Positions 1,207 through 21,806 of a stretch of DNA of 27,264 bases are shown one piece after another (within the stretch, counting starts at the first letter, position 1; each line of letters starts with the position of its first letter). This DNA comes from a virus. The DNA is taken from the IMG/VR virus record IMGVR_UViG_3300030099_005775, positions 1 through 27,264 of that record. One strand, 5' to 3'. A program made the translations under genes and the position numbers. The notes under the pieces were generated by a model. It searched no databases. It had not been told where the DNA came from and saw only the letters and a list, made by a program, of their open reading frames with translations.

Positions 1207-2130
1207 TTACTTGTTACCATAAATTCTCATTCTCATTAGTTCTTTAAAGTTTACCTCGGTTGATGTGTTTAAGTGATGTATCATTTTTTTGTAACCTAAA
1301 TCACTTGGGTCTTTTCCTTGAAGTTTTACAAAATCAACTTTTATACCCATGTTTTGAAACTTCTCAATCATCTTCAAAGAGTCGTTAAAGGCATCATCAT
1401 CCAAAACGATGACGATATTTTTTACTCTCTTTTCAACGATTTTTTTCTCAAGTTTAGGAAGTATAGTTTTTCCGAAAAGTGGAATCGTATTGTTCTTGAT
1501 GGCCATTGCATCAAACACACCTTCACAAAGGATAATCGGTTCACCCCAATCTACATATAGGTCAAAACCGATAATGTCCTTTGGTATAGGTGGATTTTTG
1601 TATTTCATGGTAGATTTATAAAAGTCTCTACCTACAAAGTAATTCAATATACCATCTGAATCATAACTTGGTATAATGATACGATTCTGATATACTCCAT
1701 TCAAACAATAATGTAGATTATATCGTAATATATCACTCATGTCTAATCCTCTTTTATATAAGAAGTTTAGTGCATGTTGTTTCTGAAGTGAATCACCACC
1801 ATTCCATAATGGTTTTGCTTCCTTTGGAAGATTCAATGTGATTTGTTTATCTTGTTTTTTATCTGATGTGTAATATGTACCACCAATACTATCACTTAAT
1901 TCTTTAAATAATTCTCTTGGTGCACCCACCTGTTTTAACAATTGGAATAAGTTGTGACCACCTTGATTACTTACCCAACAATGCCATTTACCTGTTTGTA
2001 CATTTACTTGTAACTTAGGTTTGTGATGTGTAATAAATGGACTCCACCACATATACTCATTTGATTTCTTAAGGGATTGACCTTTTGATTTCAATGCCTT
2101 ATCTAAAATATTAATTACTAATTGACTCAT
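1207..2130 (-). CDS. DnaG-type DNA primase with degenerate zinc ribbon
   Basis: 307 residues. The N-terminal part has the layout of a CHC2 zinc ribbon (WWSPF around 28-32, H35, GKWHCW at 47-52, NQGGHNLFQLL at 55-65), but only C51 and H35 of the expected Cys/His ligands remain; S30 and S54 sit where cysteines are normal. The C-terminal half is a TOPRIM fold: LCEGVFDAMA (201-210, E203 and D207), IVLDDDAFN (241-249) and GKDPSDLG (272-279). It would make RNA primers for lagging-strand synthesis, as T4 gp61 does with the gp41 helicase. The start overlaps the upstream stop by 4 bases (ATGA), so translation is probably coupled. The recombination nuclease follows directly downstream, which fits a replication/recombination operon. 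Confidence 0.85.
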   Translation of the reverse strand: MSQLVINILDKALKSKGQSLKKSNEYMWWSPFITHHKPKLQVNVQTGKWHCWVSNQGGHNLFQLLKQVGAPRELFKELSDSIGGTYYTSDKKQDKQITLNLPKEAKPLWNGGDSLQKQHALNFLYKRGLDMSDILRYNLHYCLNGVYQNRIIIPSYDSDGILNYFVGRDFYKSTMKYKNPPIPKDIIGFDLYVDWGEPIILCEGVFDAMAIKNNTIPLFGKTILPKLEKKIVEKRVKNIVIVLDDDAFNDSLKMIEKFQNMGIKVDFVKLQGKDPSDLGYKKMIHHLNTSTEVNFKELMRMRIYGNK

Positions 2131-3410
2131 GGTTTTGGTAAATGGTGTAGTGTTGTTATTATTGTATTGTCTAAATAATAGTTATCATAACCTTCAACTT
2201 CTAATCCATAGAAAGTTTGTCTTTCATTATGTATCTCTACATTAGTTATTGGATTATCTAATAATGAGTCACCGACTCTTACTTCTGTTGTTTTAATAAA
2301 TTGGAACATATTATCTCTATTAATATATATAAACTCAATTGGTGAAAACATAAAATTATTTATCTCAACCCAAGTATCAAAATCATATTTGTGGATATTA
2401 TTAATGGTTGAGTATATAATTGAATCATGATGTTCTTTAGACTGATAGGAAACCCATGGATTATTCGTATCAACTATCGTATCATCATTAACTTTATTTA
2501 ATTCAAATGGGTCTGCAGGTATTGGATAATGATGACCTTTCACTATATTACTAACTCTTACCTTATCACCTATTTTTAAATCTCGTATTGGTGTACCTTC
2601 AATCAAAGTATCACCACCAACTTGTGCCCATACACCACTTCTATTGAATGTAGAGTTTTCAAATTCCATCTCAAACATATTATCTAACTTTGGATTCTTA
2701 TCCACATAAGTTGGATTACCCTTTAGATTAATCATCTCTGAATATCCATATTGTGATGATTCTGGTCGTAATGGAATCAATCCTATATTATCCAATAAAT
2801 ACAAACACTTCATAACAATTGGATTCCCATACTCATCAGTTCGTGGTTTAATATATTGTTCACGATAATCACTATCATCATATTTACATTCAGGCATATA
2901 ATGATATTCGTTTGTCGTTTTTAACCAATCTCTAAATAAATTTTTATATCTTGATATGGTGATTAATCCTTCACCATGTTTTGTCGTAGGTAAATTCTTA
3001 ATATAATAAGTGTTATCATCTTGTTCAAAATTTTCTCTTGATTTACGAAAAATTACTTGACATTGTGGTAATTCTTTATTAAGTTTAGATATAAATTGTG
3101 GTTCTGGATTAAAACCATTATCCTCTTCTCTTATAACCAAACAAACCTTTTCATATCCCTTTACATCAATATGTGTTTTTAATCTATTGAAATCAAATCC
3201 ACCTGAACCATACACCATTAAATCAGTAAGTGCGAGGTCTGTGTTTATTTCTAATAAATAAGGTTCATTATCCTCTGATAGAATGTAATCAAAAGTTATT
3301 AGTTCTCCCTCATTAATCTTATTATCTTTGAAATACTCACTAATGAAGAGTTTACTACCAACCTTTAGTGATTTAATATGTGCCTTTGTTAAGATATGGG
3401 AACTTAACAT
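2127..3410 (-). CDS. Unknown protein with C-terminal degenerate Hint domain and ATP-grasp-like motif
   Basis: 427 residues. The N-terminal 65 residues resemble the last part of an ATP-grasp fold (ITFDYILSEDNEPYLLEINT, about 38-57, with the metal-binding ExN pattern), but the rest of that fold is absent, so this is a weak call. The middle is unrecognised. From about residue 263 the sequence follows the Hint (intein/hedgehog) pattern: GGDTLIEGTPIRDLKIGD, a block-B-like FMFSPIEFIYI, EVRVGDSLLD, and a final strand GYDNYYLDNTIITT. Q263 replaces the nucleophilic Cys, S replaces the block-B His, and the terminal His-Asn is missing, so autoprocessing looks impossible. The start lies 38 bases inside the sulfotransferase gene. 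It is supported by AGGGAGA just upstream and by an in-frame stop at 3426-3428. Its stop overlaps the primase start. Confidence 0.75.
   Translation of the reverse strand: MLSSHILTKAHIKSLKVGSKLFISEYFKDNKINEGELITFDYILSEDNEPYLLEINTDLALTDLMVYGSGGFDFNRLKTHIDVKGYEKVCLVIREEDNGFNPEPQFISKLNKELPQCQVIFRKSRENFEQDDNTYYIKNLPTTKHGEGLITISRYKNLFRDWLKTTNEYHYMPECKYDDSDYREQYIKPRTDEYGNPIVMKCLYLLDNIGLIPLRPESSQYGYSEMINLKGNPTYVDKNPKLDNMFEMEFENSTFNRSGVWAQVGGDTLIEGTPIRDLKIGDKVRVSNIVKGHHYPIPADPFELNKVNDDTIVDTNNPWVSYQSKEHHDSIIYSTINNIHKYDFDTWVEINNFMFSPIEFIYINRDNMFQFIKTTEVRVGDSLLDNPITNVEIHNERQTFYGLEVEGYDNYYLDNTIITTLHHLPKP
2130..2624 (-). other. Degenerate Hint (intein-like) domain region
   Basis: This covers residues 263-427 of the protein at 2127-3410. 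The Hint strands are readable (DTLIEGTPIRDLKIGD, FSPIEF, VRVGDSLLD, NYYLDNTII). The three positions that carry splicing chemistry, Cys1, the block-B His and the terminal His-Asn, are Gln, Ser and Thr-Thr. The fold therefore seems retained without catalysis. Confidence 0.65.
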
Positions 3411-3960
3411 TTGGAATCTCCCTATTTAAGAATTTACATAACTTATCCCAACCATCACCTTGTGTTATATCCATATGTAATATGTGTTTAGGATTAACTC
3501 TCTTTTTTAACCAAAGTAAATTACTTTGATGTTTAAATTCTGTTTTACCCTTTAACCATTCTTTTTGATATTGTGGGTAATTTTCAAATACTTCTTTATC
3601 ACCAACTCCTAACCAATTCCAAGAGTCAACTATCCCATCTTCTAATCTTCGTATTTTATCTTTCAATACTGATTCAACATAATCATCAAGTGGTCGTGTT
3701 AATGATATGTATTTTGCCCATGGATAATCATCTACTAAATGTGGGAATACTATTGGGTCATAAATAGGATAGTCAAGAAACACCTCATACTCATCATAAT
3801 CATTTAATAGTTTCATTTTTGTTTTCATATGTTGATATACTGATTCAAGAAGTTCTCCACCACCACCTGTGTGATATACTTTGAATCCAAGAATACTTAA
3901 TGCATCTGATAAACTTTTTGTACCTGTCTTATTATAACCTAAAACAAATATTTTATCCAT
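3373..3960 (-). CDS. Sulfotransferase-family protein
   Basis: 195 residues. The N-terminus has the PAPS 5'-phosphosulfate loop LGYNKTGTKSL (7-17), followed by LSILGFKVYH, a signature of small bacterial and eukaryotic sulfotransferases. The 3'-phosphate binding site reads YISLTRPLDDYVES (84-97), with R89 and S97 spaced as in the family. The C-terminus (CKFLNREIPNVKFPYLN) matches the usual end of these enzymes, so the gene looks complete. The family moves sulfate from PAPS to a sugar, lipid or protein hydroxyl; the substrate cannot be told from sequence. It overlaps the nuclease gene upstream by 8 bases and the Hint-protein gene downstream by 38 bases. Sulfating a phage or host surface glycan is possible, but that is inference. 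Confidence 0.8.
   Translation of the reverse strand: MDKIFVLGYNKTGTKSLSDALSILGFKVYHTGGGGELLESVYQHMKTKMKLLNDYDEYEVFLDYPIYDPIVFPHLVDDYPWAKYISLTRPLDDYVESVLKDKIRRLEDGIVDSWNWLGVGDKEVFENYPQYQKEWLKGKTEFKHQSNLLWLKKRVNPKHILHMDITQGDGWDKLCKFLNREIPNVKFPYLNKGTY
3417..3423 (-). promoter_or_regulatory. Ribosome binding site fixing the start at 3410
   Basis: The minus strand reads AGGGAGA, ending 6 bases before ATG at 3410 and lying inside the sulfotransferase gene. It supports the long 38-base overlap as real rather than as an over-called start. Confidence 0.65.
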
Positions 3961-4885: not shown

Positions 4886-4987
4886 TTACCACTTTATATG
4901 TTGTTTGTCTTCTACTGCATATCCTATTAAAAAAACTAAACCCATAGTTAAAGGAATCAATATAATGAGTCCCAAGAGTGTTTTCAT
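4886..4987 (-). CDS. 33-residue single-pass membrane protein
   Basis: The product begins MKTLLGLIILIPLTMGLVFL and ends VEDKQHIKW. The hydrophobic helix spans about residues 4-23, with one Lys in front and a charged tail. The ATG overlaps the stop of the PAP2 gene as ATGA, and the next gene begins 1 base after its stop. This tight junction on both sides is the main evidence that it is a gene. The function is unknown; small phage inner-membrane proteins of this type can act as holins, antiholins or superinfection-exclusion factors. Confidence 0.6.
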   Translation of the reverse strand: MKTLLGLIILIPLTMGLVFLIGYAVEDKQHIKW

Positions 4988-5607
4988 TTCTTCATACCTC
5001 TGAATAAAACTTTTGCAATCTTTCTACCATATTCTCTGTCACTTGGGTAATGTGCTTTTGCAATAATTCTTGATTCAGCGATATCATCTCCCTTACCAAT
5101 ATATTCTTCACCATTGGTTGGGTCTTTGTGTGCAAGATACTCTCCGATTAAATAACCTTGGACTGCATGACCACTTGGATAACTTGGTGTTTTCATACTA
5201 TCAAGTGTAGTCCCATTTAAATCTATATCGTAGAACTCAGCAATCTGATATGGTCTTGGTCTATTATAATGATATTTTAACTCCATAATAAACTTAACAC
5301 TTTCTTTTACTATTTTTTTAATATCTTTTCTACTGATATCTAAACTATTTTTTTCTATCAACTCCATAAATGATTCTACAACATCATCATTTGACTCTGC
5401 AAACTTTGGATTAGGTTTAACACCTGCAAGAAACTTAACTTCTTTCAATGTTAATGATGAGTCATTTTCAGGTGGTGTTACTTTTGGTAATACTAAATTT
5501 TCATCCCACAATTCTAATTTACGAGACATTCTTTTTTCGTCTTTAGGTCTAACACTTTCTGCATACACCATATTACGAAGTTCTAATAATTCTTTTAACT
5601 TAATCAT
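4984..5607 (-). CDS. PAP2-superfamily phosphatase
   Basis: 207 residues with all three PAP2 signatures: K111-x6-R118-P119 in KYHYNRPRP, YPSGHAVQGY (143-152, with PSGH at 144-147), and SR-x5-H-x3-D with S179, R180, H186 and D190 in the stretch ending HYPSD. The family removes phosphate from lipids or small organic phosphates through a phospho-His intermediate. No membrane helices or signal peptide are seen, so it looks like a soluble class-A-acid-phosphatase type. The first ten residues, MIKLKELLEL, closely match those of the upstream gene product and resemble a T4-style capsid-targeting peptide. The start overlaps the upstream stop by 4 bases (ATGA). Packaging into the capsid is inference. 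Confidence 0.85.
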   Translation of the reverse strand: MIKLKELLELRNMVYAESVRPKDEKRMSRKLELWDENLVLPKVTPPENDSSLTLKEVKFLAGVKPNPKFAESNDDVVESFMELIEKNSLDISRKDIKKIVKESVKFIMELKYHYNRPRPYQIAEFYDIDLNGTTLDSMKTPSYPSGHAVQGYLIGEYLAHKDPTNGEEYIGKGDDIAESRIIAKAHYPSDREYGRKIAKVLFRGMKK

Positions 5608-6486: not shown

Positions 6487-7239
6487 TCATCTCCAATCCC
6501 ATATTTTAAATGCGTTATAAGTAATCCCAAATCCAATAACAGGTTCTGTTAAACCTGTCACATTATCATAAGTAACACCTATAAAAGGCCCTACACTAAT
6601 TTGGTTTCGTGGTGGTTTAATCTTAAATGGATTACTTCTTCTACTATTTAACTTTAAACCATCAAATTGTTTTTCAGGTACGATTGCGTACCATTCACCT
6701 TTTACTTCACCTTGTTCTATAAAAGGTTCACCTTGTTTTAAACTACCATCAAATCCTAACTCGGTCTCTGAATCCACAATACTATCATTTACTATCGCGA
6801 CACCAGTTCTACCAAAGACTCTTAGGTAGTCATCTTGTCTACCAAATTCTTTTTCAAATGGAACTACTCCAGCACCACTTGAATGAGATTCTCTATTATC
6901 ATAAATAGAAACCTTTTTAGAAAGTCGTTCCTTAATAGTATCTAATTCTACTTGGAACTCATCCATTTTTTTCTTTAGATTTCTATTTTCAATACCACGA
7001 GTTTTATCATGGTCATGTAAATCTTTTAATAAATCATTATTTTGTTTTACCAAAATCTTAACAGAGTCCTGTAACTCTGTAATCATTACATCTTGTCGTT
7101 CAGAATCTTCTCTCAAAAAATTCATTTCTTCTTGAGCGTAATAATAACGAATCCCCACGATACATAAAATGAAAAGAATGTTTAGGAATCCACCTATCAC
7201 CCACTCTCTTCTTTTTTGTGGCCAATGTTTTAACAACAT
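6487..7239 (-). CDS. Membrane-anchored coiled-coil protein, spanin-like layout
   Basis: 250 residues. A basic N-terminus (KHWPQKRREW) is followed by one membrane helix at about 14-32. Residues 36-110 then form a long heptad-rich coiled coil (QDVMITELQDSVKILVKQNN and on). After a Ser/Gly linker, the C-terminal end has short amphipathic strands (ISVGPFIGVTYDNVTG, VIGFGITYNAFKIW) like a small beta domain that could contact the outer membrane. The inner-membrane anchor plus periplasmic coiled coil is the layout of Rz-type inner-membrane spanins, and small phage proteins of this shape are common in Bacteroidota phages. AGGAG lies 5 bases before the ATG. The lysis role is inference; a structural envelope tether is the alternative. 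Confidence 0.55.
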   Translation of the reverse strand: MLLKHWPQKRREWVIGGFLNILFILCIVGIRYYYAQEEMNFLREDSERQDVMITELQDSVKILVKQNNDLLKDLHDHDKTRGIENRNLKKKMDEFQVELDTIKERLSKKVSIYDNRESHSSGAGVVPFEKEFGRQDDYLRVFGRTGVAIVNDSIVDSETELGFDGSLKQGEPFIEQGEVKGEWYAIVPEKQFDGLKLNSRRSNPFKIKPPRNQISVGPFIGVTYDNVTGLTEPVIGFGITYNAFKIWDWR

Positions 7240-7247
7240 ATGAACTC

Positions 7248-7766
7248 CTATTCTATATTTTGAAGTGCATCCTCAATGGCCTTTTTCAAAGAACCACCTA
7301 ACTCACTCTTACCGAACTCCACATCCTCTTGAATTTGTAAACCTGCAGCAGATACTTGTGTTGTTGTTTCACCAATTCCACGATAACTTCTTTGTACACC
7401 TTCTTTGTTTTGTACTAAGTTTAAAAGTAATCTAACTTCAGTTTTTTGATTTCTACGATTGAACAGACCTGCAATACTAAATGCTTCATTTGGTTTACCG
7501 ATATAAAGTATTTCTACATTCGCAGTATAATCAGCATTATCATCTTCAGTCAATCTATATCGTGTATCTTGAAATTGTTCCTCAAGTAATTGTTTGATAC
7601 CCATAGTAACTCTCTCATCAATCACACCAATCGTTTCATCAACTTTAACAAATTGTGATATTCTTAATGTAGGAAATTCTACATCTTTACCAACAACTGC
7701 TGGTTGTGGTAAGGATTGTGAATATCCAAATCCTATCAATAATAACATCATAATTAGTTTCTTCAT
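7248..7766 (-). CDS. Secreted CsgG/LpoB-fold-like periplasmic protein
   Basis: 172 residues with a signal peptide (MKKLIMMLLLIGFGYS, then Gln). The mature part alternates strands and helices in the order seen in CsgG-type proteins: ERVTMGIKQLLEEQF helix, YTANVEILYIGKP strand, VRLLLNLVQNKEG strand, YRGIGETTTQ strand, and a last helix GGSLKKAIEDALQNI. No lipobox is seen, so it is probably soluble in the periplasm. The larger CsgG-like lipoprotein and an outer-membrane barrel are encoded just upstream, which suggests the three work together. The fold call comes from pattern similarity only. AGGAGA lies 5 bases before the ATG. Confidence 0.5.
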   Translation of the reverse strand: MKKLIMMLLLIGFGYSQSLPQPAVVGKDVEFPTLRISQFVKVDETIGVIDERVTMGIKQLLEEQFQDTRYRLTEDDNADYTANVEILYIGKPNEAFSIAGLFNRRNQKTEVRLLLNLVQNKEGVQRSYRGIGETTTQVSAAGLQIQEDVEFGKSELGGSLKKAIEDALQNIE

Positions 7767-7775
7767 TTTCTTCTC

Positions 7776-8762
7776 CTAAAAGTATGTTCCAAACATTATG
7801 GCATATGTTATTGTTCTTTCACCATAATCGTTCACAACCGTATTGTATCCCATACTGAATCCTAAGTTTACTTTAAATGCCTGACTCAATTGAAAATCAA
7901 AAGAAAGTGTAGGCATAAGTATAATAGGACTCTTCAATAATAAATATTGTTTTCCTGAATTTAATCCTTTATAATATCTTAATAATGTATATGAAACATA
8001 GTTTGTAAGTGTTACTTTACCAAATGGTGTTTCTAATGGCATTCTATTACCATACAATACTGATAGATTACCAAATGCATTTTTACTAACATTTCCATAT
8101 GCAGTTGTTAAAACAATTACTTCAGAATTTCTCTTTACAAGTGATTTTGCATATGAACCTGATAATAACCAATCAGTTCCCTCAAATGTTCTAAAGAAAA
8201 CACCTGAACCACTTATCACTTGATTTTGTTTCTTTGCAAGAAAGTTTATTCCTTGACCATACGATGCATTAAATCTACTGAAGTCATCTGTAAAACTAAA
8301 GTTACCATCGTATCTACTTTTACCATCAAAACTTTCTCTTGTATAAATACTATTAAAAGATGTTACCCAACTACTATCTACGGTTGGTGATGTTTTGATA
8401 CCATAATTAACTTGTCCAACATCATTACTTACATCTTGTTTTGTAAATTGTTCTGTTGCGTTACTTGCCAATACTGATGAAAGTATTTCTTCTGCCACTC
8501 TAACTGCACAAGGAAACAAATCTTCAAAATCATTATAGACTTTTTGAGTCCAATTTTCTAATGTTCCATCTACTATTTGGTCAAAGGTAAAAAATTTAGA
8601 TTTGTTATAATAAGTAACATAAAATCCACCATCCATTGGTTGAAGATTATAATTATCCCTAACGATGGTTTGATTACATGGGTCAATATAACTATAAAGA
8701 AAACCTTGTGCAGAGAGTGCACTAATAGATAATATTAAATATAATACAACTCTCTGCCACAT
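7776..8762 (-). CDS. Outer-membrane beta-barrel protein
   Basis: 328 residues. A signal peptide (about 1-18, ending ISALSA before Gln) is followed by a globular segment with two Cys (PCNQ near 28 and PCAV near 87). From about residue 120 there is a long run of alternating strands rich in Tyr, Phe and Ser (NYGIKTS, SWVTSFNSIYTRE, VSYTLLRYYKG, FKVNLGFSMGYN). The last residue is Phe in YAIMFGTYF, the C-terminal aromatic signature used by the BAM machinery. It lies between two CsgG-fold-like genes, so a joint outer-membrane channel or export device is possible. I cannot name the family. Confidence 0.65.
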   Translation of the reverse strand: MWQRVVLYLILSISALSAQGFLYSYIDPCNQTIVRDNYNLQPMDGGFYVTYYNKSKFFTFDQIVDGTLENWTQKVYNDFEDLFPCAVRVAEEILSSVLASNATEQFTKQDVSNDVGQVNYGIKTSPTVDSSWVTSFNSIYTRESFDGKSRYDGNFSFTDDFSRFNASYGQGINFLAKKQNQVISGSGVFFRTFEGTDWLLSGSYAKSLVKRNSEVIVLTTAYGNVSKNAFGNLSVLYGNRMPLETPFGKVTLTNYVSYTLLRYYKGLNSGKQYLLLKSPIILMPTLSFDFQLSQAFKVNLGFSMGYNTVVNDYGERTITYAIMFGTYF

Positions 8763-8767
8763 TCATA

Positions 8768-9430
8768 CTACCAACCTCTACGGTCAATCGCTTTGATTAC
8801 ATTCACAACCGCAGTTTCCATAGCCTTGTTAGACGCAGAACTTAAAGAACTCTGATTCCATTCCATATTAGGATTCTTTAAAAATCCTTGTCCTATGGTG
8901 GATGCTCTTCCTTGTCCACTACCAACTACATACTGAGTATTCTCATTATTGATTACTTTAACTTGGATACCAACAATAGTTTCGTTTATTGTTTGAACTT
9001 TACCAGCTTTGATATCTTCTTTCAAGTTAACAGCAAAATCATAAATAGTTACATATGCAGTGTATTTGGTTTTTTCTATTTTTGCTTCGTTGGCTTTTAA
9101 ATCATTAATTATAGATAATTGTACATCTCTATCTCCCTCTACGAGATTGAATCTACCAATAAAAGAAATCACATTCGCAAGTTCTTGGTTTAACCCAAAT
9201 GCAACCCTTTTATCACCAAGTTCTGGATATCTTTCTTCAAGTTCTTTATTGAACTTAACATCCAAAATCTTTAGATTATCTACTTTAGTGATTTCTACTT
9301 CATCTAATGATTTTTGTTTTTCGTACTCACCAACATATTGTTCGGTTGATACTGATGCGGCACACCCCATAAATTGTACACCTACACTAAACAAAAACAC
9401 AACAACAAGTAGTTTCCAAAATTTACTCAT
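8768..9430 (-). CDS. CsgG-like lipoprotein
   Basis: 220 residues. The N-terminus is a lipoprotein signal (hydrophobic 7-22, then FMGCAAS with C23 as lipid anchor). The rest follows the CsgG pattern: a nucleotide-binding-like alpha/beta core, GRFNLVEGDRDVQL (114-127 region), strand YTAYVTIYDFAV, VGIQVKVINNENTQYVVGSG, and the C-terminal helix AMETAVVNVIKAIDRRGW. CsgG makes the nine-fold outer-membrane pore for curli secretion and is about 277 residues in E. coli; this one is shorter, so one or both membrane hairpins may be reduced. No curlin-type repeats are seen nearby, so its cargo is unknown. GGAGA lies upstream of the ATG. It is followed by the barrel protein and a second CsgG-like gene. 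Confidence 0.65.
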   Translation of the reverse strand: MSKFWKLLVVVFLFSVGVQFMGCAASVSTEQYVGEYEKQKSLDEVEITKVDNLKILDVKFNKELEERYPELGDKRVAFGLNQELANVISFIGRFNLVEGDRDVQLSIINDLKANEAKIEKTKYTAYVTIYDFAVNLKEDIKAGKVQTINETIVGIQVKVINNENTQYVVGSGQGRASTIGQGFLKNPNMEWNQSSLSSASNKAMETAVVNVIKAIDRRGW

Positions 9431-9439
9431 TATTATCTC

Positions 9440-9820
9440 CTATTTGAAATCTGCTAATGGGTCTTTTAATAGTTTTTCTAAACGAGTTATTTCATCTTGT
9501 AGATTATTAATCTCATTTTCTAACCTAACTATATCTCCATCATAAGATTTTACTTTTGGTGTTTTTAAACCATCTACTTTTTCTCGTAGATATTTAAAAT
9601 CTTCATCATATTTCTCAAATTTTTCTGCTACCATTTCTACATCAGATGCATCAGCAAATCCTAAAACTACTTCTTCTAATGAATCAATACGACCTGTAAA
9701 GGTATACCAACCAGCGATAACGGTAGAAAGAAAAGTAACAATAGCAATAATATTGTTAATTGATACTTTGAATCCTTTTGATTTAACTTCTTCAATAGCT
9801 TGTTCTATATCTTTTGCCAT
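9440..9820 (-). CDS. Single-pass membrane protein with C-terminal coiled coil
   Basis: 126 residues from ATG at 9820, chosen because AAGGAG lies 7 bases upstream; an in-frame ATG at 9850 would overlap the zinc-ribbon gene and lacks a site. A helix of mixed charge (2-18) leads into one membrane segment (about 21-41, IIAIVTFLSTVIAGWYTF). Residues 45-122 are acidic, heptad-rich coiled coil (IVRLENEINNLQDEITRLEK). A similar membrane-plus-coiled-coil layout is common near phage lysis genes and could be a holin or a spanin partner of the protein at 6487-7239. The function is inferred from shape only. Confidence 0.55.
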   Translation of the reverse strand: MAKDIEQAIEEVKSKGFKVSINNIIAIVTFLSTVIAGWYTFTGRIDSLEEVVLGFADASDVEMVAEKFEKYDEDFKYLREKVDGLKTPKVKSYDGDIVRLENEINNLQDEITRLEKLLKDPLADFK

Positions 9821-9983: not shown

Positions 9984-10853
9984 TTATATCTCCATGTTTA
10001 TTGTTAATAATAATGTATTCTTTAATGGATGGGTTTTATCACCATTTAGTACACCCACTCCAAACTTCCATTTTTCAAATTTAAAATCAAATCCTAATGA
10101 TGAATAATTCAAATCATGTGTTACATCATTATAATATCCAGCATTTACCCAAAACATATTTTTTAAGTTATAGGAAACACCTTGTCCATGAGTGTGATAT
10201 CCATCATAAAGATTCCATTGATTATAAATATCCCATTTATCTTTTATTGGTATGTGAAAACCAACATTAAATGCAGATGGTTGTTCTATTTCATATCCAT
10301 TTATCTTAGTCATATATCCAAAGTTAGATACACCTAAATCTAAATTAACCATACCATATATTTTATGAAAGTGTAAACCTATATCAAATAACATACCATC
10401 AGTTTTTTCTGTATATAAGTCATGGAATATTGCCTTACCTCTAAATCCAAGTGATACACTATCTACTCTTGAACCTTTATATAGTAAATTAGTTCCCCAA
10501 CCCACACCTAATACTAAAGTACTTGGTGAAAAGTTACCACTTATAATACCACTTTCATCCGCAAACTTCTGTTCACCATAATTAAAATACAATAGTGAGT
10601 AATCAAGTTTACCCTTTTCAACTTCTACATAATTATAACCCATATCATCTACAATGTTACCTAACCATTGTACATTAGTGAAACTAACATTAGTAGTAGT
10701 ATCAAGGTTTAAATTGTTAAGTGCAGGATTTCTAAATGCAAGTGATTGGTTACCCAATATTGTTTCACTTGTAGTAGGTGAAATTGTAAGGACACTATTT
10801 ACTTGTCCAAACAAAGTACCAATCATTAATAATCCTATTAATATATTTTTCAT
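9984..10853 (-). CDS. PorV/PorQ-family outer-membrane protein
   Basis: 289 residues. The signal peptide (MKNILIGLLMIGTLFG, then Gln) is followed by family landmarks: LGNQSLAFRNPALNNL (33-48), the aromatic VQWLGNIVDDMGYNY, ISGNFSPSTLVLGVGWG, VSLGFRGKAIFHDLY, FDIGLHFH and LGVSNFGYM. The protein is mostly beta strand and fits a 14-strand FadL-like barrel. PorV (also called LptO) carries T9SS substrates from the translocon to the attachment complex, and PorQ is its relative in the same system. The T9SS cargo gene lies just upstream with only a 35-residue membrane protein gene between. A carrier role for that cargo is inferred from family and position. Confidence 0.7.
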   Translation of the reverse strand: MKNILIGLLMIGTLFGQVNSVLTISPTTSETILGNQSLAFRNPALNNLNLDTTTNVSFTNVQWLGNIVDDMGYNYVEVEKGKLDYSLLYFNYGEQKFADESGIISGNFSPSTLVLGVGWGTNLLYKGSRVDSVSLGFRGKAIFHDLYTEKTDGMLFDIGLHFHKIYGMVNLDLGVSNFGYMTKINGYEIEQPSAFNVGFHIPIKDKWDIYNQWNLYDGYHTHGQGVSYNLKNMFWVNAGYYNDVTHDLNYSSLGFDFKFEKWKFGVGVLNGDKTHPLKNTLLLTINMEI

Positions 10854-10957
10854 TTTCTGTTCTCCAATTTTTCAGATATCCAAACTATACCCTTTAGAGT
10901 TAAATACCCTAATGGTAGTATTAAAAATAGTAATCCAAAAAATTTTATCGTTTCCAT
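10850..10957 (-). CDS. 35-residue single-pass membrane protein
   Basis: The product begins METIKFFGLLFLILPLGYLT and ends ISEKLENRK. The hydrophobic helix covers about 5-27, with a charged tail. Its ATG shares a base with the stop of the T9SS cargo gene (TAATG) and its stop overlaps the ATG of the PorV/PorQ-like gene (ATGA). This double coupling argues strongly for a real gene made in step with the cargo and the barrel. The function is unknown; a membrane adaptor for either neighbour is a guess. Confidence 0.65.
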   Translation of the reverse strand: METIKFFGLLFLILPLGYLTLKGIVWISEKLENRK

Positions 10958-13824
10958 TATTTTACCACCGTAAATTTATTTGCTTTAATCTTTTTATCTG
11001 TTTCAAGAACAAATATGTAAACACCTGGTTCTAATGTTTGATGATTCTCATATACACTCACTTCAGGTAACCAAACACTTGGTTCATTTGTAAAATCAAA
11101 TGTATGTATACCAGCATCAACCACTTCATCCAACAATGCTCCAATGTATTGTCCATTAGAATTTAATATGTAAAGTTTTACATGTTCCATTTCATCTAAG
11201 AAGAATTGGAATTTGGTGTTTTCTTTAAATGGATTTGGATAGTTATAAGTTATATCATCCTCAAGTGGTTCTCCACCACCGAATGCCCAATACTTATTCC
11301 ATACCATTACCTTACCACTTTCTCTTTTCATATTTAAATCATCACCATTTGGATTACCTGCTGCATATTTACCAACGAATCTAATAGGAGCCTCACTCCA
11401 TTCCTCATCAGGAAACTCTGCTCTGAACATTAACTTTAATGCACTCATTTGTTCAGTAATCCAATAGTTAGTAGGTGAGTTACCTGGTGAATAATCCATA
11501 CCACCAAATCTTACTCGTTGCCATCCTGCTTCAACTTCACCTACATTTACATATGTCATCCAAGGGCCTGGTAAATTACCAGTCTTCATATCAATAAAGG
11601 TTAATTCATTTGTATTGAACTCAACTTCAAATTCAAACCCTGCAATATCAATACCCTCTGTTGGTGTAATCTTTAATGGAACTTCAATCACCTCACCACT
11701 CTGAACTCTTACGGTTGAATCTGGTGGGAATGATAATAATACATCATGGTCTGTCATTATTTTACTTAGACTTCTGTTATTATCACCACCAACAACTATT
11801 CGTGCCCATTCATCAGGTGGATTATTACCCCAACGATAATATGTTGTACCATCTACAACTGGTGTAATTGCAGTTCCATCATTATCAACTTTTAAACCTG
11901 TTAGGTTTAAATCACCTGTAAAGTAATATCCAATATCAGAATCATTTGTAGTTCCAATAATATCAACTTGTTTGTCATTGTCATCAGTATCAAACAAGTA
12001 ATCAGGATTTACATCATTTCCAAATGTAGAACTACCTGCTCCAACTTTAATACTTAATATATCTAATCTGGTCTCAACTTCATTCATTAATGGATTAAAT
12101 CTTACAATACCACCACCATCTGTAGTTAGTTCTGCAGTTTCTTGTGCCAAATCACCATCAACAAAAATACTGAACTCTCCTCTTTGATTTCTTGTGTTTC
12201 CATCATAGTCTTGTTTGTAAGTATAAGTGTCATCATTGTTATTTAAATTATCAATACTTGACCATTGTTGATAAGTTTCACCATTGTAGTGTGTGTAATC
12301 TGTAGCAAACACTCCACTTGTGTATGCCCATAAGAAATAGGCATCATTTAATTGGTATCTATCATCACCATCAACATCACCAATTAAATATCCACTTGGT
12401 GATTCTATCTCAATATTTGTTTCGTTATCAAATTTATTACTTTGGAAATTAAATCCTGCAATCGCATCATTAATATTTGTGATTGCATCTCTATCTAATA
12501 AATAAGTGGTATGGTCACCAACTACATCATCTGCTTCTGGTGGCCAAAACGATACTTTATATCTGTTATTTCTTGGTAAAGATATATTGAAATATCCTTT
12601 ATCATCTGTATATGTCCAATACCAATAAGTTACATCTTTAAATCCTTGATTCTGAATCTTTTGGTCTGATGTTGTTCCTGCATTTTGTTCATAGTATCTC
12701 ATATGTTGATACCCTAATGCATTTTCTCCATACTCATCATAAGTTCCCATAACATCATCGTTTAAAGATTCATCTGTTAAACTTGTTGGATAATTGATAT
12801 CTCTTGGGTTTCTCCAATTAGAAAGATTATCTGGATTAGTTTCATCTACCTCAAAGATAACTTTCATCATAGCATATTTGTTTTGTGAAAAATCTTCACC
12901 ACTATCTTTTGTTCCATCTTTATCGGTATCAATCCATTCACCAATGTATCTTAAGTATCCCTCAAGTTGTACAAGTTTTGGATGTAGTGTAATATCACCA
13001 CGAGCCGCTCCATTGAAAGTTCTTCGTGCCGTATATGAATCACCCCAATTACCATCAATGTAAACTTTATAATCTAAAAGATAATCATCTGAAACATATG
13101 TGTAATATCCTTCTGCTCCATCATATTGAGTCGCAACTCTAAACGCTCTTGGTGCAAAATCATCAACAACATCATTGATTAAAAATTGTAATTTTAAGAT
13201 TTGTTTCTGAACTCCATCACCACCACCAAATGTTTTATCTGGTGTTCCATCTTCGTCATCATCAACTCCATGAGATATTGCAGTTATTCTTAACCAATCG
13301 TATCTATTATCTGAAATAGATTCTTCTACTTGATTACCACTTACTGCAAGTGAATCTTGATATCCTACATTTGCATAATGAACTACTTCAAATGAATAAT
13401 CTGCCTCTGAAGTTGCATCACCCTCTGTCCAACCACTTATGTGTGAACCTTTAATAACCCTTGAATTTCCTTGACTCCATGCATTAATTGATGTTTCACC
13501 ACTCTCCACCCAAGTGATTAAATCATTATCAAATGCTATATCTAATCTGAATGTTGTGATATCTGCACCATTATCATCCAAAGTAACTTCCATCTCCAAT
13601 ACTTTATCTCTCCAAATATCAAAGTTGTTGTTATCTTCGGCTGGTTTAGATACATCTTGTGCCAAGAAATCATCTAAATCTTGTGTAACGGAACCTTTCC
13701 ACCACATTGCTGGTGTAGACCAAGTTCCTAATTGTTTAACCCTTATTATTGGTTCCTGAGTCTGTGCAGACAAAGTACCCAACAAAGTCATGGCTATAAC
13801 CATTGTTTTTATCAAACGAATCAT
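10957..13824 (-). CDS. Large secreted T9SS cargo with cohesin-like, dockerin-like and type A sorting domains
   Basis: 955 residues from ATG at 13824, picked over ATG 13836 because GGAGAAG sits 4-10 bases upstream and the signal peptide then begins MIRLIKTMVIAMTLLGTLSA followed by Gln. Two beta-sandwich segments are suggested: one near 40-200 (LEMEVTLDDNGADITTFRLD) and a clear cohesin-like one at about 693-838 (EVPLKITPTEGIDIAGFEFE, then LTFIDM). Around 475-500, LIGDVDGDDRYQLNDAYFLW matches one dockerin calcium loop. The end (854-955) is a T9SS type A sorting domain: YNYPNPFKENTKF, VKLYILNSNGQ and LEPGVYIFVLETDKK. Such domains send proteins through the outer membrane for surface attachment or release. 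This is striking in a phage. The role is unknown; adhesion or surface masking of infected cells is inference. Confidence 0.85.
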   Translation of the reverse strand: MIRLIKTMVIAMTLLGTLSAQTQEPIIRVKQLGTWSTPAMWWKGSVTQDLDDFLAQDVSKPAEDNNNFDIWRDKVLEMEVTLDDNGADITTFRLDIAFDNDLITWVESGETSINAWSQGNSRVIKGSHISGWTEGDATSEADYSFEVVHYANVGYQDSLAVSGNQVEESISDNRYDWLRITAISHGVDDDEDGTPDKTFGGGDGVQKQILKLQFLINDVVDDFAPRAFRVATQYDGAEGYYTYVSDDYLLDYKVYIDGNWGDSYTARRTFNGAARGDITLHPKLVQLEGYLRYIGEWIDTDKDGTKDSGEDFSQNKYAMMKVIFEVDETNPDNLSNWRNPRDINYPTSLTDESLNDDVMGTYDEYGENALGYQHMRYYEQNAGTTSDQKIQNQGFKDVTYWYWTYTDDKGYFNISLPRNNRYKVSFWPPEADDVVGDHTTYLLDRDAITNINDAIAGFNFQSNKFDNETNIEIESPSGYLIGDVDGDDRYQLNDAYFLWAYTSGVFATDYTHYNGETYQQWSSIDNLNNNDDTYTYKQDYDGNTRNQRGEFSIFVDGDLAQETAELTTDGGGIVRFNPLMNEVETRLDILSIKVGAGSSTFGNDVNPDYLFDTDDNDKQVDIIGTTNDSDIGYYFTGDLNLTGLKVDNDGTAITPVVDGTTYYRWGNNPPDEWARIVVGGDNNRSLSKIMTDHDVLLSFPPDSTVRVQSGEVIEVPLKITPTEGIDIAGFEFEVEFNTNELTFIDMKTGNLPGPWMTYVNVGEVEAGWQRVRFGGMDYSPGNSPTNYWITEQMSALKLMFRAEFPDEEWSEAPIRFVGKYAAGNPNGDDLNMKRESGKVMVWNKYWAFGGGEPLEDDITYNYPNPFKENTKFQFFLDEMEHVKLYILNSNGQYIGALLDEVVDAGIHTFDFTNEPSVWLPEVSVYENHQTLEPGVYIFVLETDKKIKANKFTVVK

Positions 13825-13827
13825 CGT

Positions 13828-13834
13828 CTTCTCC
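13828..13834 (-). promoter_or_regulatory. Ribosome binding site fixing the start at 13824
   Basis: GGAGAAG on the minus strand lies 3 bases before ATG at 13824. It overlaps the alternative ATG at 13836, which therefore is unlikely to be used. Confidence 0.65.
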
Positions 13835-13836
13835 AT

Positions 13837-16691: not shown

Positions 16692-19600
16692 TTAATTTAC
16701 TTTAAGTTTAGAATCTCCTGGTTCTTTTGTTATCAATTGTGTTGGTGTTGTTGTGGTTGTTTCAACTGGTTCTCCACCATCAATAGTATTTGATTGTGCA
16801 GTCAATTGAGAACTACCGATAGTCACACTACCAATAAATGGTGATTTACTTGATGTAGGATGACTTGTTTGTCCATCGTCTCTTGTTACAGAACCACCAA
16901 TAAATGACCTAAATAATCTTGAATCATAATAAACACTTTGGTGTTCACTTGGTACAAATGAAGAACTATAATGTAGTCCTCTTGATGCACTCAAACTTGA
17001 TGAATAAAAGAATACTTTTTCTTGATTATGTTCTGATAATCTTGAACCTGTAATTACTGGTTGTAATACTTCACCAAAGGTTACACCTTCTCCACCAAAT
17101 GTTACACTTGCAGTTGCATAATTGTAAGAGTGTGGTGTTTTTGGGTCTATAACACCCAACTTAACTAATGTAGGTTCACCTAATGCACCGAGTGAACCAC
17201 TATTATCATGGAATACTCCATTTAATTCACTTTCATGATATCGTGTTTCACCACCTATATCAAAATATGCATCATCTTTTGAACCACTAATAAATCTTGT
17301 TACTGGTACACCATCTTCAAACTCACTGGCGTTTTCAAAGAAACGATTATTAAATGAAGGTCTATCACCAATTACTTGTTTACTTCTTTCTAATATATTT
17401 GGTTCAACTAATATACCTGTTGTGGCTTTACTTCTCATAGGAACCCAATTCTTTAATTGTGTGAATACACTTGGGTCGTAAAATGTAAGTATCCTTAAAT
17501 AGTCAAAAAAGTTATTTGGTGCTGAATACTTTTGCCAATACTCAGTTCTTAATTTTTGTAAACCTCTATAGTTTTGTTTGTATTGGTCTCTTGGGTCTCC
17601 AATAAAATCATCAAAATTAAAATCTGCAATACTATACATTATATCTTCATTTATCACATCAACTGGTGAAAAATAAATACCTACCTTTTCACTATCAATC
17701 GGTGCAAAATCTTGTGATGATTTTTCTTTTCTTTCAGATGGTGATAAATTACCTGTTAATGATGAGTCTTCAATTCTTACTTTAGTTGCATTTCTTCTTG
17801 AAGGGCCAATATTTGGAACTCTTAATTGTTCTTTATCAACTAAACTTCTAAATGTATTTGTTGTGAACCCACTTGAAGAACCAGTTATATCATTGTAGTT
17901 TGAACCATTAGAAACATTATTAACATGAGTTGTAGATGATAAATCAAAATTATTGTCTAATGTATATCTCACCAATAAATCATGATAAGAAGAACTATAT
18001 GAATTACCATTATATGACTTTGGTGCTCTTACATGATTATCAAATACACTTTGACTTAATGGTTCTGACCATAAACGATATTCCATTAATGAACCACTAA
18101 ACCTTGAACCAAAGTTTGTATTTTGTCCACCAAGATAAACATACTTTGTTCCAACACTACCTGTAAATGCAGCATTGATTGCACTACTACTCGCGTGTCC
18201 TTGTCCTGTTGTTAAACTTGAACTTGTTTGAAACTTAACTTTTTCTCTTGTTGAGTCATATTGTTTTGTAGTTAATTCATACTTTACATTTCTTGATATT
18301 AAATCATCTGTCATCTGTACACCACTCGCACTGACTCTTGTTAACATCACACTCCACATTTCGTCATTATAAAATGGTTGTAGTGATGAAGTTATACCAT
18401 ATACACCTGTTGAGGCACTAACACTAAATTTTAAATGTCCATAATTATCAGTCGTTCCATTATCTTTTAAATGTATTGCCCAATCATTTTCTTTTTGTGC
18501 AATCACCATACTACCAGAACTACCAACACTATGTGGTGTTCTAAATCTAAACTCTAATGTTTGTGGATACTGACTATCATTATTATCTGTTGTCCATATA
18601 CTTTTAATATTTTGTGACCCATGAAAATCTAATGCATATGTAAACTTTCTTTTCACTTCATAACTTACTCGTTCTTGATTATCTGGCCCACCATATTCTC
18701 TTACTCTTAATATTGAACTTGGAATACCATAACAATTCAATATACCTTTTAAACATCTAACACTACCTTTTGCCTTTATAAAGAAAGGAATATTATTTAG
18801 TAGTCGTTTCCATATTTCTTCTGTTACTTGTTCTTGTGGTATTTCGTATTTAGTAGAACCATCAGGATTTTTACCTTCAAGATATTCTGGTAAAATTAAT
18901 AAATCATTTCCATTTGTAAGTTCTAATCCAAGAGATTTTGCAAACTCTGCTGCAATATCTTTTGAAATACCCTCTGATATATTTGGTGATAAATCATTTA
19001 CATCAGTAAGATGTTTTGTATATGTCCATATCTCGTCAAATTGTTGTGCAGTCATATCCATAAATTCTATGAATGTATTATTCATAGTATCATCTTTTAC
19101 ATGCATAGGTATATTATTAACAAACCTATTGTTGTTTATTGTATCATATGTAGATGAAGATAATATCATGTTATCAAACCAAGTACTCACTTCAGAACCA
19201 GTTGAGTGGTAAAGAGTGTATGGTTTTGATGAATTTGTTTTAGGCCACGAGTTATCGTGATATTGTCCTGCAGATGAACTTACATAAGATGAACTTTCAA
19301 AATACATATAATGTTCAAATGGGTCAAATGAATTAACGACTCTTTGTCTTTTATTTTCGTTATCTTGAATATCACTTAATGAACCAGTCAAACTAACTAA
19401 TGATTGACTTGTCTCACTATAAGTTTCAATTAACTCTACTTTCTTTTTGAAGTTTCTAATTCTTCTTTCTGCACTTGAGTAATGTACAAAATTACCAAAT
19501 CCTATATCATCAGTTTCTAAATTTAAATCAACTGATGTTCTGTTAAATTCTGTATTGACTTGAACATCTAACAAACTACCACTTACTAATTTTCTCTCAA

Positions 19601-21806
19601 TGTCTCTATTCAATGCATCATTACTTCCTAATAATGTATTGTGTGATTCATATCTCGTTGACCTAAAGTTTATAGGATTATCAACTGAATTTAAATTAGG
19701 TAATTGTAAAAACAATCCATCTGGTTCTTCATCAATAAATGGTATTAATCTTATTACTTCAACATGAGATGGTAGTCTTTTCTCTACAAAATATACTTTA
19801 TCTAATTCTTGTTTTTCACCAGTCAATGGTTGTTTTAATTTAAATACTCTTTTTTCATTTTGAGAATCAAAAAACTCTTTGTTTTCATTTGTGATTAAAT
19901 AATAATCATTATCACAAACCATGTAGGTTTTAAATCTTTCTATATTGTTTTTCTCATATAAAACATTCCAACCATAATAGTCTGAATCTCTACCACTCGG
20001 GCCGTCATGTCCAACATTATCTGCAGCCTGTTGGTATGTTAAACTTACTTTTACTCTATTGTAATCAAGTACTTCTGTAATTGTCGCAACATAATCAAAA
20101 TGAAATGTCTCGTCTTCAAATCGTGTAACCCAACTTTCAACAATCTCAGTTGTGAAATCTTGTGTTCCTTCAGGTACTGGTGTATTTAGAATAAAATCTT
20201 CAAAAGGAGCTATCTCTGCATGTCCTAACATTTCTTGATTTATATCATCTACAATAACTTCATTTTGATATATGTTATTATTGTTTGCACCAAACATACC
20301 CCAACCATCACCACTCTCTATTAATCCACCTTGTGGTAAACCATTACCTGGTGTTATTGGGTCTGTACCCTCTTCACCTAAATCTGTATTACCTGTTGCA
20401 TCAAAATCAATGTATGCGGGTCTGGCAGAACCTTGTTTTTGTCCACGATATGGGTCAACATAACCACTTGCTGCTCTTTGTGCTGCCTGTTGTTTTGCTC
20501 TATCAGACACACCCATTCTAAATCTATTTCTGTCTTCAAGAAATCTTTCTTGCCAATGTTTAGTCTCAGTAGTCTTCCATTTACCAAGAGTCGCTGCAAC
20601 TATATTGTTTGCAAAAATTGTATGGTCTTTATCTAATACTAAGTTCCACACTTTAAAAGGTGGTTTTTGATAATATACTTTACCAATCTCTCTTGACATA
20701 AACCAACCATCTTTTGTTCTGATAGGATGGTGGTCGGTAACAATAAGGTTTTTATATTTAACCATCAAGTCACCAAAACCTCTTTCACTCTTTATGACTT
20801 TCTTAACTCTTGCAACACCCTTATCAGTTCTGACTTTCATACCAATCTTCATCATCTTGATTGGAACTTGTCTACCATTACTTAATGTTACTTTTGTATT
20901 AGGATGAAAACAAACTCCATCATAATCAAATTCCATTCCACCATCAAAATCATCATCTTCAGGTGGGTCATCTTGTGGTGGGTCTGGTTCAGGTGGTAAC
21001 TCATCATAAATTGGTGGAGGTGGTGGTGGTGGTATATCTGGTGGTACTTCTACAGGTACCTGTACTTCTGTTAATACTGATTCAAGATATTCCCTTGTGA
21101 TTGTTTTTTCAAATATTCTTGGTATTCTTATTTCTGCACCAACCATATTTTGTGTAAACCCTCTATCATCATCTTGTAGGTTTGCTACTAATACTCCTGG
21201 TTGATTCTCATCAAACTTAATAGAACCATTTGCTCCACTACCTGCAGTAAGAAATGGTTGATACTTCACTATAGTATTCATTTCTCTAAAGTTTCTATGA
21301 TATGTTTGGTTTTTAAAATCTTGTGTTTTAACTACGACTTCTGTTCTATCACAACTAATTTTATCAAGTGAATATTTTAAATCTCGTATAAATAATTCTT
21401 GTGGTGGATTATCTGTCATGGATTGTGCAGATGCATTTGGTGGTGGTGCAGTATAATATCTTATTTCTTCATTTATATTTCTTGTGATAACTTTACCTGC
21501 GTATAATTCGCCATCACCATTAACCATTACTAAATGGTCTCTACCTGCTAACTTTCTTAAAAATCTATATTGTACAATATACTCACCATCAGATAATCCA
21601 TTATCTCTTAAATGTTGTCCTATATTTAAATCTAAAAATCCAGTTGCATTGGTATCAGGATTAAATTTATCTGTAAGCACAAGTTCATCATTTTGGAAAA
21701 CTTCTAAGACAATATAGTCTCCACTATCTCTTCCAAAACTACTATACACCCTTTCAGGTTTATAATATTCTTCTCTCTCTTGATTATTAAATCCGTATTC
21801 TGCCAT
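16692..21806 (-). CDS. Giant baseplate wedge protein (gp7/tail-protein-I-like) with Hint and LamG-like domains
   Basis: 1704 residues. The N-terminal 240 residues are a beta-rich structural domain. A proline/acidic linker (about 249-297, with a run of seven Pro) leads to a Hint domain at 299-405 (C299 in GVCFHPNTKV, block B LIVTDHHPIRTKDGW, end HTIFANNIVAATL). Residues about 919-1039 match tail protein I / gp7-type wedge sequence (EEIWKRLLNNIPFFIKAKGS, then CLKGILNCYGIPSSILRV). Residues about 1050-1265 fit a LamG/concanavalin-like lectin fold (LEFRFRTPHS, YVYLGGQNTNFGSRFSGSL, MEYRLWSEPLSQ). The remainder is Ser-rich with many GS turns. Position after gp25 and gp6 is where the third wedge protein is expected. 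T4 gp7 has 1032 residues, so this is much larger. The wedge call rests on the 919-1039 region and order. Confidence 0.75.
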   Translation of the reverse strand: MAEYGFNNQEREEYYKPERVYSSFGRDSGDYIVLEVFQNDELVLTDKFNPDTNATGFLDLNIGQHLRDNGLSDGEYIVQYRFLRKLAGRDHLVMVNGDGELYAGKVITRNINEEIRYYTAPPPNASAQSMTDNPPQELFIRDLKYSLDKISCDRTEVVVKTQDFKNQTYHRNFREMNTIVKYQPFLTAGSGANGSIKFDENQPGVLVANLQDDDRGFTQNMVGAEIRIPRIFEKTITREYLESVLTEVQVPVEVPPDIPPPPPPPIYDELPPEPDPPQDDPPEDDDFDGGMEFDYDGVCFHPNTKVTLSNGRQVPIKMMKIGMKVRTDKGVARVKKVIKSERGFGDLMVKYKNLIVTDHHPIRTKDGWFMSREIGKVYYQKPPFKVWNLVLDKDHTIFANNIVAATLGKWKTTETKHWQERFLEDRNRFRMGVSDRAKQQAAQRAASGYVDPYRGQKQGSARPAYIDFDATGNTDLGEEGTDPITPGNGLPQGGLIESGDGWGMFGANNNNIYQNEVIVDDINQEMLGHAEIAPFEDFILNTPVPEGTQDFTTEIVESWVTRFEDETFHFDYVATITEVLDYNRVKVSLTYQQAADNVGHDGPSGRDSDYYGWNVLYEKNNIERFKTYMVCDNDYYLITNENKEFFDSQNEKRVFKLKQPLTGEKQELDKVYFVEKRLPSHVEVIRLIPFIDEEPDGLFLQLPNLNSVDNPINFRSTRYESHNTLLGSNDALNRDIERKLVSGSLLDVQVNTEFNRTSVDLNLETDDIGFGNFVHYSSAERRIRNFKKKVELIETYSETSQSLVSLTGSLSDIQDNENKRQRVVNSFDPFEHYMYFESSSYVSSSAGQYHDNSWPKTNSSKPYTLYHSTGSEVSTWFDNMILSSSTYDTINNNRFVNNIPMHVKDDTMNNTFIEFMDMTAQQFDEIWTYTKHLTDVNDLSPNISEGISKDIAAEFAKSLGLELTNGNDLLILPEYLEGKNPDGSTKYEIPQEQVTEEIWKRLLNNIPFFIKAKGSVRCLKGILNCYGIPSSILRVREYGGPDNQERVSYEVKRKFTYALDFHGSQNIKSIWTTDNNDSQYPQTLEFRFRTPHSVGSSGSMVIAQKENDWAIHLKDNGTTDNYGHLKFSVSASTGVYGITSSLQPFYNDEMWSVMLTRVSASGVQMTDDLISRNVKYELTTKQYDSTREKVKFQTSSSLTTGQGHASSSAINAAFTGSVGTKYVYLGGQNTNFGSRFSGSLMEYRLWSEPLSQSVFDNHVRAPKSYNGNSYSSSYHDLLVRYTLDNNFDLSSTTHVNNVSNGSNYNDITGSSSGFTTNTFRSLVDKEQLRVPNIGPSRRNATKVRIEDSSLTGNLSPSERKEKSSQDFAPIDSEKVGIYFSPVDVINEDIMYSIADFNFDDFIGDPRDQYKQNYRGLQKLRTEYWQKYSAPNNFFDYLRILTFYDPSVFTQLKNWVPMRSKATTGILVEPNILERSKQVIGDRPSFNNRFFENASEFEDGVPVTRFISGSKDDAYFDIGGETRYHESELNGVFHDNSGSLGALGEPTLVKLGVIDPKTPHSYNYATASVTFGGEGVTFGEVLQPVITGSRLSEHNQEKVFFYSSSLSASRGLHYSSSFVPSEHQSVYYDSRLFRSFIGGSVTRDDGQTSHPTSSKSPFIGSVTIGSSQLTAQSNTIDGGEPVETTTTTPTQLITKEPGDSKLKVN
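20592..20912 (-). other. Hint (intein-like) domain inside the wedge protein
   Basis: This covers residues 299-405. The N-terminal Cys (C299) and the block-B TxxH (TDHH) are present, so an N-S acyl shift is chemically possible. The C-terminal His-Asn needed for splicing is replaced: the line NNIVAATL has Ala-Thr where inteins have His-Asn. There is no room for a homing endonuclease. It resembles bacterial intein-like (BIL) or hedgehog-type Hint domains, which cleave or ligate instead of splicing. Confidence 0.75.

Follow-up and report, generated by a model that had tools for sequence, protein, structure and literature searches.

The window, that is the whole stretch of DNA analysed here, covers 27 kb of a marine phage and corresponds to the IMG/VR virus record IMGVR_UViG_3300030099_005775. 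Among its tailed-phage genes are those for a DNA primase (PHROG 4.9e-36) and for proteins of the baseplate wedge (PHROG 4.8e-19). On its minus strand, a cargo gene (10957..13836) is followed by the gene of a 35 aa single-TM protein (TM35, 10850..10957) and by that of a 289 aa PorV/PorQ-family outer-membrane barrel (9984..10853). As the first-pass annotation had described, TM35 shares a TAATG overlap with the cargo stop and an ATGA overlap with the barrel gene. Five to six more genes of the same module, which that annotation had left aside, come after the barrel.

Other genes on the same strand were recorded in passing. A 1704 aa protein of the tail/baseplate region (16692-21806) contains a Hint (Vint) domain at aa 298-412 (Pfam, 1.1e-16), and its gene is split in two ORFs (~300 and 1200-1500 aa) in several relatives (L017, L021, L024 and L026). 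A 427 aa protein (2127-3410) has a weak match of the intein-splicing type (0.0011) and is shared with only one close relative (loci L002/L030). The phage also encodes a sulfotransferase (3373-3960; Sulfotransfer_4, 5e-26) and a PAP2-type phosphatase (4984-5607; 4.5e-8), the latter adjoining the module in many relatives.

The cargo and the PorV/PorQ-family barrel

The cargo measures 959 aa from its first ATG, but the start at 13824 that had initially been chosen (955 aa) is probably the right one, being preceded by GGAGAAG and coinciding with the beginning of the signal peptide. This signal peptide is of the Sec type (MIRLIKTMVIAMTLLGTLSA-Q, by inspection; signal peptides and holins were assigned by eye or similarity throughout the analysis). 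It precedes a cohesin-like segment (aa 708-755), a single dockerin-like Ca-binding loop (GDVDGDDRYQLNDAYFLWAY) and a T9SS type A sorting domain (aa 866-957). The cohesin match is partial and slightly above the cut-off (PF00963, 25.1 bits against 24.1), the relatives reaching 36.7-37.2. Dockerins have two Ca-binding repeats whereas the window cargo has one such motif, and even in the relatives PF00404 scores (17.4-19.3 bits) stay below its cut-off of 22.9. A literature search for cohesins or dockerins in phages found nothing relevant.

The claim that the C-terminus of the cargo belongs to the T9SS sorting families holds for one of the two profiles: TIGR04183 (NCBIfam) matches aa 866-957 just above its cut-off (23.7 bits against 23, 3.5e-5), while PF18962 (Pfam) remains at 16.9 bits, under its cut-off of 27. 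About 40 relatives of the cargo were found in viral contigs. Their TIGR04183 matches are clearly stronger (1e-7 to 1e-15, up to 53 bits), which indicates that the borderline match in the window is real; cargos of relatives devoid of a PorV-family barrel also exceed the PF18962 cut-off (34.6-35.1 bits). A chance match as the origin of the sorting domain is ruled out by the scores of the relatives together with the 0/12 count in the control phages described below. Cryo-EM structures show PorV loops holding type A sorting domains inside SprA, with the C-terminal Lys of these domains in contact with PorV (PMC10994853); a near-invariant Lys is retained near the cargo C-terminus (KANKFTVVK). The cargo is a candidate for export by the host T9SS.

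The barrel matches the PorV_fam profile (NCBIfam NF033709) over residues 35-288 with 79.4 bits (3.5e-22), short of the cut-off of 90. The same profile is matched by all 15 aligned barrel relatives (best 2e-32) and its cut-off is exceeded in 12 of 50 records, so the barrel clade falls within the PorV/PorQ family and the window lies just under the threshold. The sole PDB match of the barrel profile is the PorV of F. johnsoniae (6h3i, 2.1e-13); the original assignment to this family, rather than to an unrelated porin, is therefore upheld. The likeness to host PorV and PorQ is a family-level sequence match across nearly the whole barrel. Yet the window barrel stays far from the PorV equivalog (NF033710, 39.6 bits for a cut-off of 250) and the PorQ equivalog (NF033711, 57.1 bits for 220), and the phage barrels are ~100 aa shorter than host PorV, without its N-terminal extension and one long loop, although the other segments align without large gaps. 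In a maximum likelihood tree that also took in 20 host PorV and 10 other host family members, mostly PorQ, all 25 phage barrels group together (support 100/97), apart from both. This topology suggests that they are an old, deep and phage-only clade. When genomes were scanned with the barrel, the one hit was a MAG contig that is itself of phage origin, and thus no recent bacterial donor was found. Searches of named phages with the cargo and the barrel gave no match.

The expectation that related phage contigs keep both genes together was borne out: among the distinct window-clade relatives whose sequence extends far enough beyond the cargo, 29 of 29 encode the barrel immediately after it (gaps from -3 to 407 nt), and no barrel was seen without an upstream cargo wherever the contig reaches that far. 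The third member of the proposed trio fared differently, as TM35 is present in the window but only in some of the relatives and is often absent, for instance where cargo and barrel are separated by 0 or 7 nt; it is a dispensable, non-conserved element. Cargo and barrel evolve under purifying selection (dN/dS 0.14-0.44; 0.06-0.44 for the module genes overall). At one locus (L014:12987-13823) the barrel is 59% identical to that of the window and the adjoining cargo 86%, which may reflect either local replacement or fast divergence.

A phage-specific block marked by LP220

The genes downstream of the barrel, all on the minus strand, extend the pair into a larger block. TMcc136 (9440..9820), located between the barrel and LP220, has an N-terminal TM helix and a coiled coil (126 aa from a conserved ATG). 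LP220 (8768..9430), a predicted outer-membrane lipoprotein, is the most widespread marker of the module. OM328 (7776..8762) combines an N-terminal domain, carrying the conserved cysteines C29 and C85, with a predicted 11-12-strand barrel; its versions in other phages range from 300 to 600 aa, many of them with a low-complexity linker. LP172 (7248..7766) is a secreted paralogue of LP220 (hhalign 97%, 8.8e-11), and CC250 (6487..7239), with a TM helix, a coiled coil and a C-terminal domain, is an accessory gene of the window clade. Synteny was compared in about 50 loci and then in ~80 more, the best 80 of a longer list, and the order is cargo, (barrel), TM protein, LP220, OM328 and LP172. In modules without the PorV-family barrel, the cargo is followed by a C-type lectin with a dockerin-like match.

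LP220 was found in at least 493 viral contigs. Fifty phage records bearing it, which are not independent lineages and most of which are possibly incomplete, were searched for sorting domains: 48 have a type A domain above the cut-off, one of the two exceptions (L092) is a contig that begins inside the barrel, and in the other (L131) the domain was detected by the profile built in this analysis. Each of eight large genomes (153-344 kb) has a single sorting domain that exceeds the cut-off, encoded 0.3-1.1 kb upstream of LP220. A small control was made up of 12 cultured Bacteroidota phages that do not carry LP220 (phages of Cellulophaga, Flavobacterium, Polaribacter and Nonlabens), and the domain is absent from all 12. 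Conversely, LP220 occurs in only 2 of 395 Bacteroidota genomes, once in a phage contig within a MAG (G051) and once marginally. The association with the sorting domain and the near-absence of LP220 from bacteria therefore indicate that the block is a phage-specific set to which PorV was added in one clade, only 17 of the 50 records having a match to the PorV-family barrel. The constant partners of the cargo are LP220, OM328 and LP172.

These results lend partial support to the first-pass annotation. Both the cargo and its PorV/PorQ-like partner are brought by the phage as it proposed, and none of the three observations that it had named as contrary to its reading (a C-terminus outside the sorting families, a barrel closer to an unrelated porin, relatives that never keep the pair) was made; but the PorV-like partner is confined to one clade and the constant partners had gone unmentioned.

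LP220 was the only query that led to a cultured phage, the Flavobacterium phage immuto, whereas OM328 retrieved none of the named phages. The block of immuto encodes a secreted C-type lectin (gp013), a protein with a cohesin and a type A sorting domain (gp015), LP220 (gp017), OM328 (gp018) and LP172 (gp019), and no PorV-family barrel was found in this phage. Its block adjoins replication genes and the annotated endolysin lies ~6 kb off. Since the core of the block exists in a cultured phage, its role in infection is open to test. As to the window clade, one of its phage contigs (L056, NZWA01000008.1) was binned in a Flavobacteriales MAG, which is both weak host evidence and a contamination of that MAG. 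PorV-family genes of the host, taken as a proxy for its T9SS, are present in this MAG and in 20 of 20 relatives searched.

The structure models of LP220 and OM328 are of low confidence (pLDDT 47 and 59), and because of this poor quality the fold searches provide leads only. Foldseek returned weak likenesses of LP220 to the lipoproteins PelC, HpaA and CsgG (~2e-5) and of OM328 to the FapF and PelB barrels, all with TM-scores <0.55. These are weak hints that LP220 may be one of the outer-membrane lipoproteins that form rings or pores, and that OM328 may resemble barrels involved in export. LP220 was rejected as a CsgG orthologue: PF03783 is found neither in immuto nor in the MAG G051 (the CsgG of HTVC008M, as positive control, gave 1.8e-54), none of 13 aligned LP220 members matches CsgG, and the hhalign comparison of the two families reaches 5.6%.

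Comparison with known systems

A phage-encoded T9SS cargo is not in itself a new proposal. In the part of the Cryophage study available to us, phage genes with type A sorting domains are described, their use of the host system is proposed and superinfection exclusion is suggested (PMC7468147). A type A cargo that would use the host T9SS is common to Cryophage and the window phage, but the part of that study in question deals with three variable accessory genes (endoglucanase, GH39 and PA14) and describes neither a PorV partner nor a conserved outer-membrane block (PMC7468147). Here, a single and constant cargo of the cohesin type belongs to a block of fixed order. The closest parallel to the gene pair comes from Flavobacterium johnsoniae, where type B cargos adjoin the genes of their own SprF/PorP-like shuttles, the cargo gene being directly followed by that of the carrier barrel as in the phage, whereas type A cargos are reported to depend on a common PorV (PMC12618676). 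The phage pair associates a type A signal with the PorV family instead. An adjacent type A cargo and PorV-type barrel would consequently be a new arrangement: type B cargos have it, but we found no report of it for type A.

Pelagimyophages and Melnitz carry the curli-pore genes CsgF and CsgG (PMC7029224, PMC9004378); like the window phage, they are marine and bring genes for outer-membrane lipoproteins of the export type. Unlike CsgG, LP220 has no match to the CsgG profile, and no curlin-like repeat protein was recognised in the window block. The relation of LP220 and OM328 to PelC/PelBC-type lipoproteins is a weak fold likeness in low-confidence models, with no sequence match. Another phage-made surface protein is the Llp of T5, a small, late-acting lipoprotein that masks the receptor and stops adsorption to infected cells or debris. 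It differs from the large T9SS-tagged protein of the window, which is accompanied by helper genes.

Possible roles in infection

Several scenarios may explain the conservation of this block. The one that we favor, to which we give about an even chance, is that a cohesin-type protein of the phage reaches the surface of the infected cell by way of the host T9SS and, in the window clade, with a carrier that the phage itself encodes. The cargo, tagged by its sorting domain, would be displayed on or shed by the infected cell; in the window clade the phage would supply a PorV-family carrier, encoded immediately downstream, that may pair with this cargo. The cargo would act, perhaps in a complex, together with the phage-specific outer-membrane set made up of LP220, OM328, LP172 and the membrane-anchored protein, the core that all these phages conserve. 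The cell surface could thereby be altered late in infection, the purpose possibly being receptor masking, superinfection exclusion, adhesion, or preventing the progeny from binding receptors on debris. In favor of this reading are the sorting domains of nearly all LP220-bearing records and their absence from the 12 control phages, the constant adjacency of cargo and barrel, the purifying selection on both, the old barrel clade, the retained C-terminal Lys, the PorV-family genes of the Flavobacteriales MAG and its relatives, and the presence of the core in immuto. Against it, the phage barrel is without one long PorV loop and scores far below both equivalog cut-offs, and several of the modules that lack the PorV barrel adjoin endolysin and holin-like genes. 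Moreover, a single host PorV handles every type A cargo and is apparently more abundant than required (PMC12618676), so it is puzzling that a phage should need its own carrier, and most phages with the module do not have one.

The main and serious rival, which we hold to be possible but rather doubtful, is that the module mainly performs the outer-membrane step of lysis, with LP220, OM328, LP172 and the TM coiled-coil proteins as a spanin or pore set, the exported cargo and the lectin helping to detach the cell or to weaken its envelope. Among the 33 loci without PorV (L103, L126, L098 and 30 more), 22 have a GH19 endolysin-type gene, 13 a second endolysin-like gene, and most have small TM proteins, possible holins, between cargo and LP220; at one locus, the gene L103:4718-5317 matches a PHROG endolysin (2.8e-12). 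CC250 and TMcc136 have sub-significant matches to PHROG spanins (E 0.013-0.15), Rz-like ones in the case of CC250, and a role in lysis was proposed for the phage CsgG in Melnitz (PMC9004378). Nevertheless, breaking the outer membrane requires neither a type A sorting signal nor cohesin/dockerin-like modules or a C-type lectin, none of the 16 window-clade loci checked has an endolysin-type relative beside its block, and the block of immuto sits next to replication genes at a distance from its endolysin. Surface display and lysis could also be combined if the surface protein were made just before lysis and kept the progeny off debris. The same 33 loci encode an EndoG-like secreted nuclease in 8 cases and a small Zn-peptidase-like secreted protein in 23.

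It is less probable still that the barrel is no shuttle but has another envelope role and adjoins the cargo for co-expression only; it would then be part of a PorQ-like attachment complex, a masking protein or a decoy occupying the SprA gate. The separate position of its clade, the scores under both equivalog cut-offs, the missing PorV loop and the persistence of the cargo in PorV-less phages would agree with such a role; against it stand the adjacency in 29 of 29 relatives, the lack of barrels without an upstream cargo where the contig reaches that far and the alignment of the remaining PorV segments. The idea that a surface protein and a porin were recently captured from the host and play no part in infection is already disfavored and appears very improbable. 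Bacteroidota commonly possess both domain families, and PorV-family genes exist in the Flavobacteriales MAG and its 20 relatives, but the phage-only barrel clade is deep, LP220 is essentially missing from the 395 Bacteroidota genomes, the module genes are under purifying selection and their order is fixed across distant phages.

Returning to display through the host T9SS, a broader version of it can be put forward tentatively: LP220, OM328 and LP172 might constitute a phage-encoded apparatus for surface assembly on the host T9SS, present in hundreds of Bacteroidota phages, whose client would be a T9SS-tagged cohesin scaffold with a dockerin-lectin possibly attached, one lineage having its own PorV-type carrier. 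As far as the literature we found goes, isolated cargo genes had been the only ground for suggesting that phages use the T9SS. In the present case the cargo almost always accompanies an outer-membrane gene set confined to phages, and in one clade also a PorV-type carrier; the phages concerned differ widely and include a cultured one. If the display hypothesis is true, phages would redesign the surface of the host cell through a whole secretion route, and the window clade would offer a natural dedicated cargo-carrier pair for the study of how PorV recognizes sorting domains.
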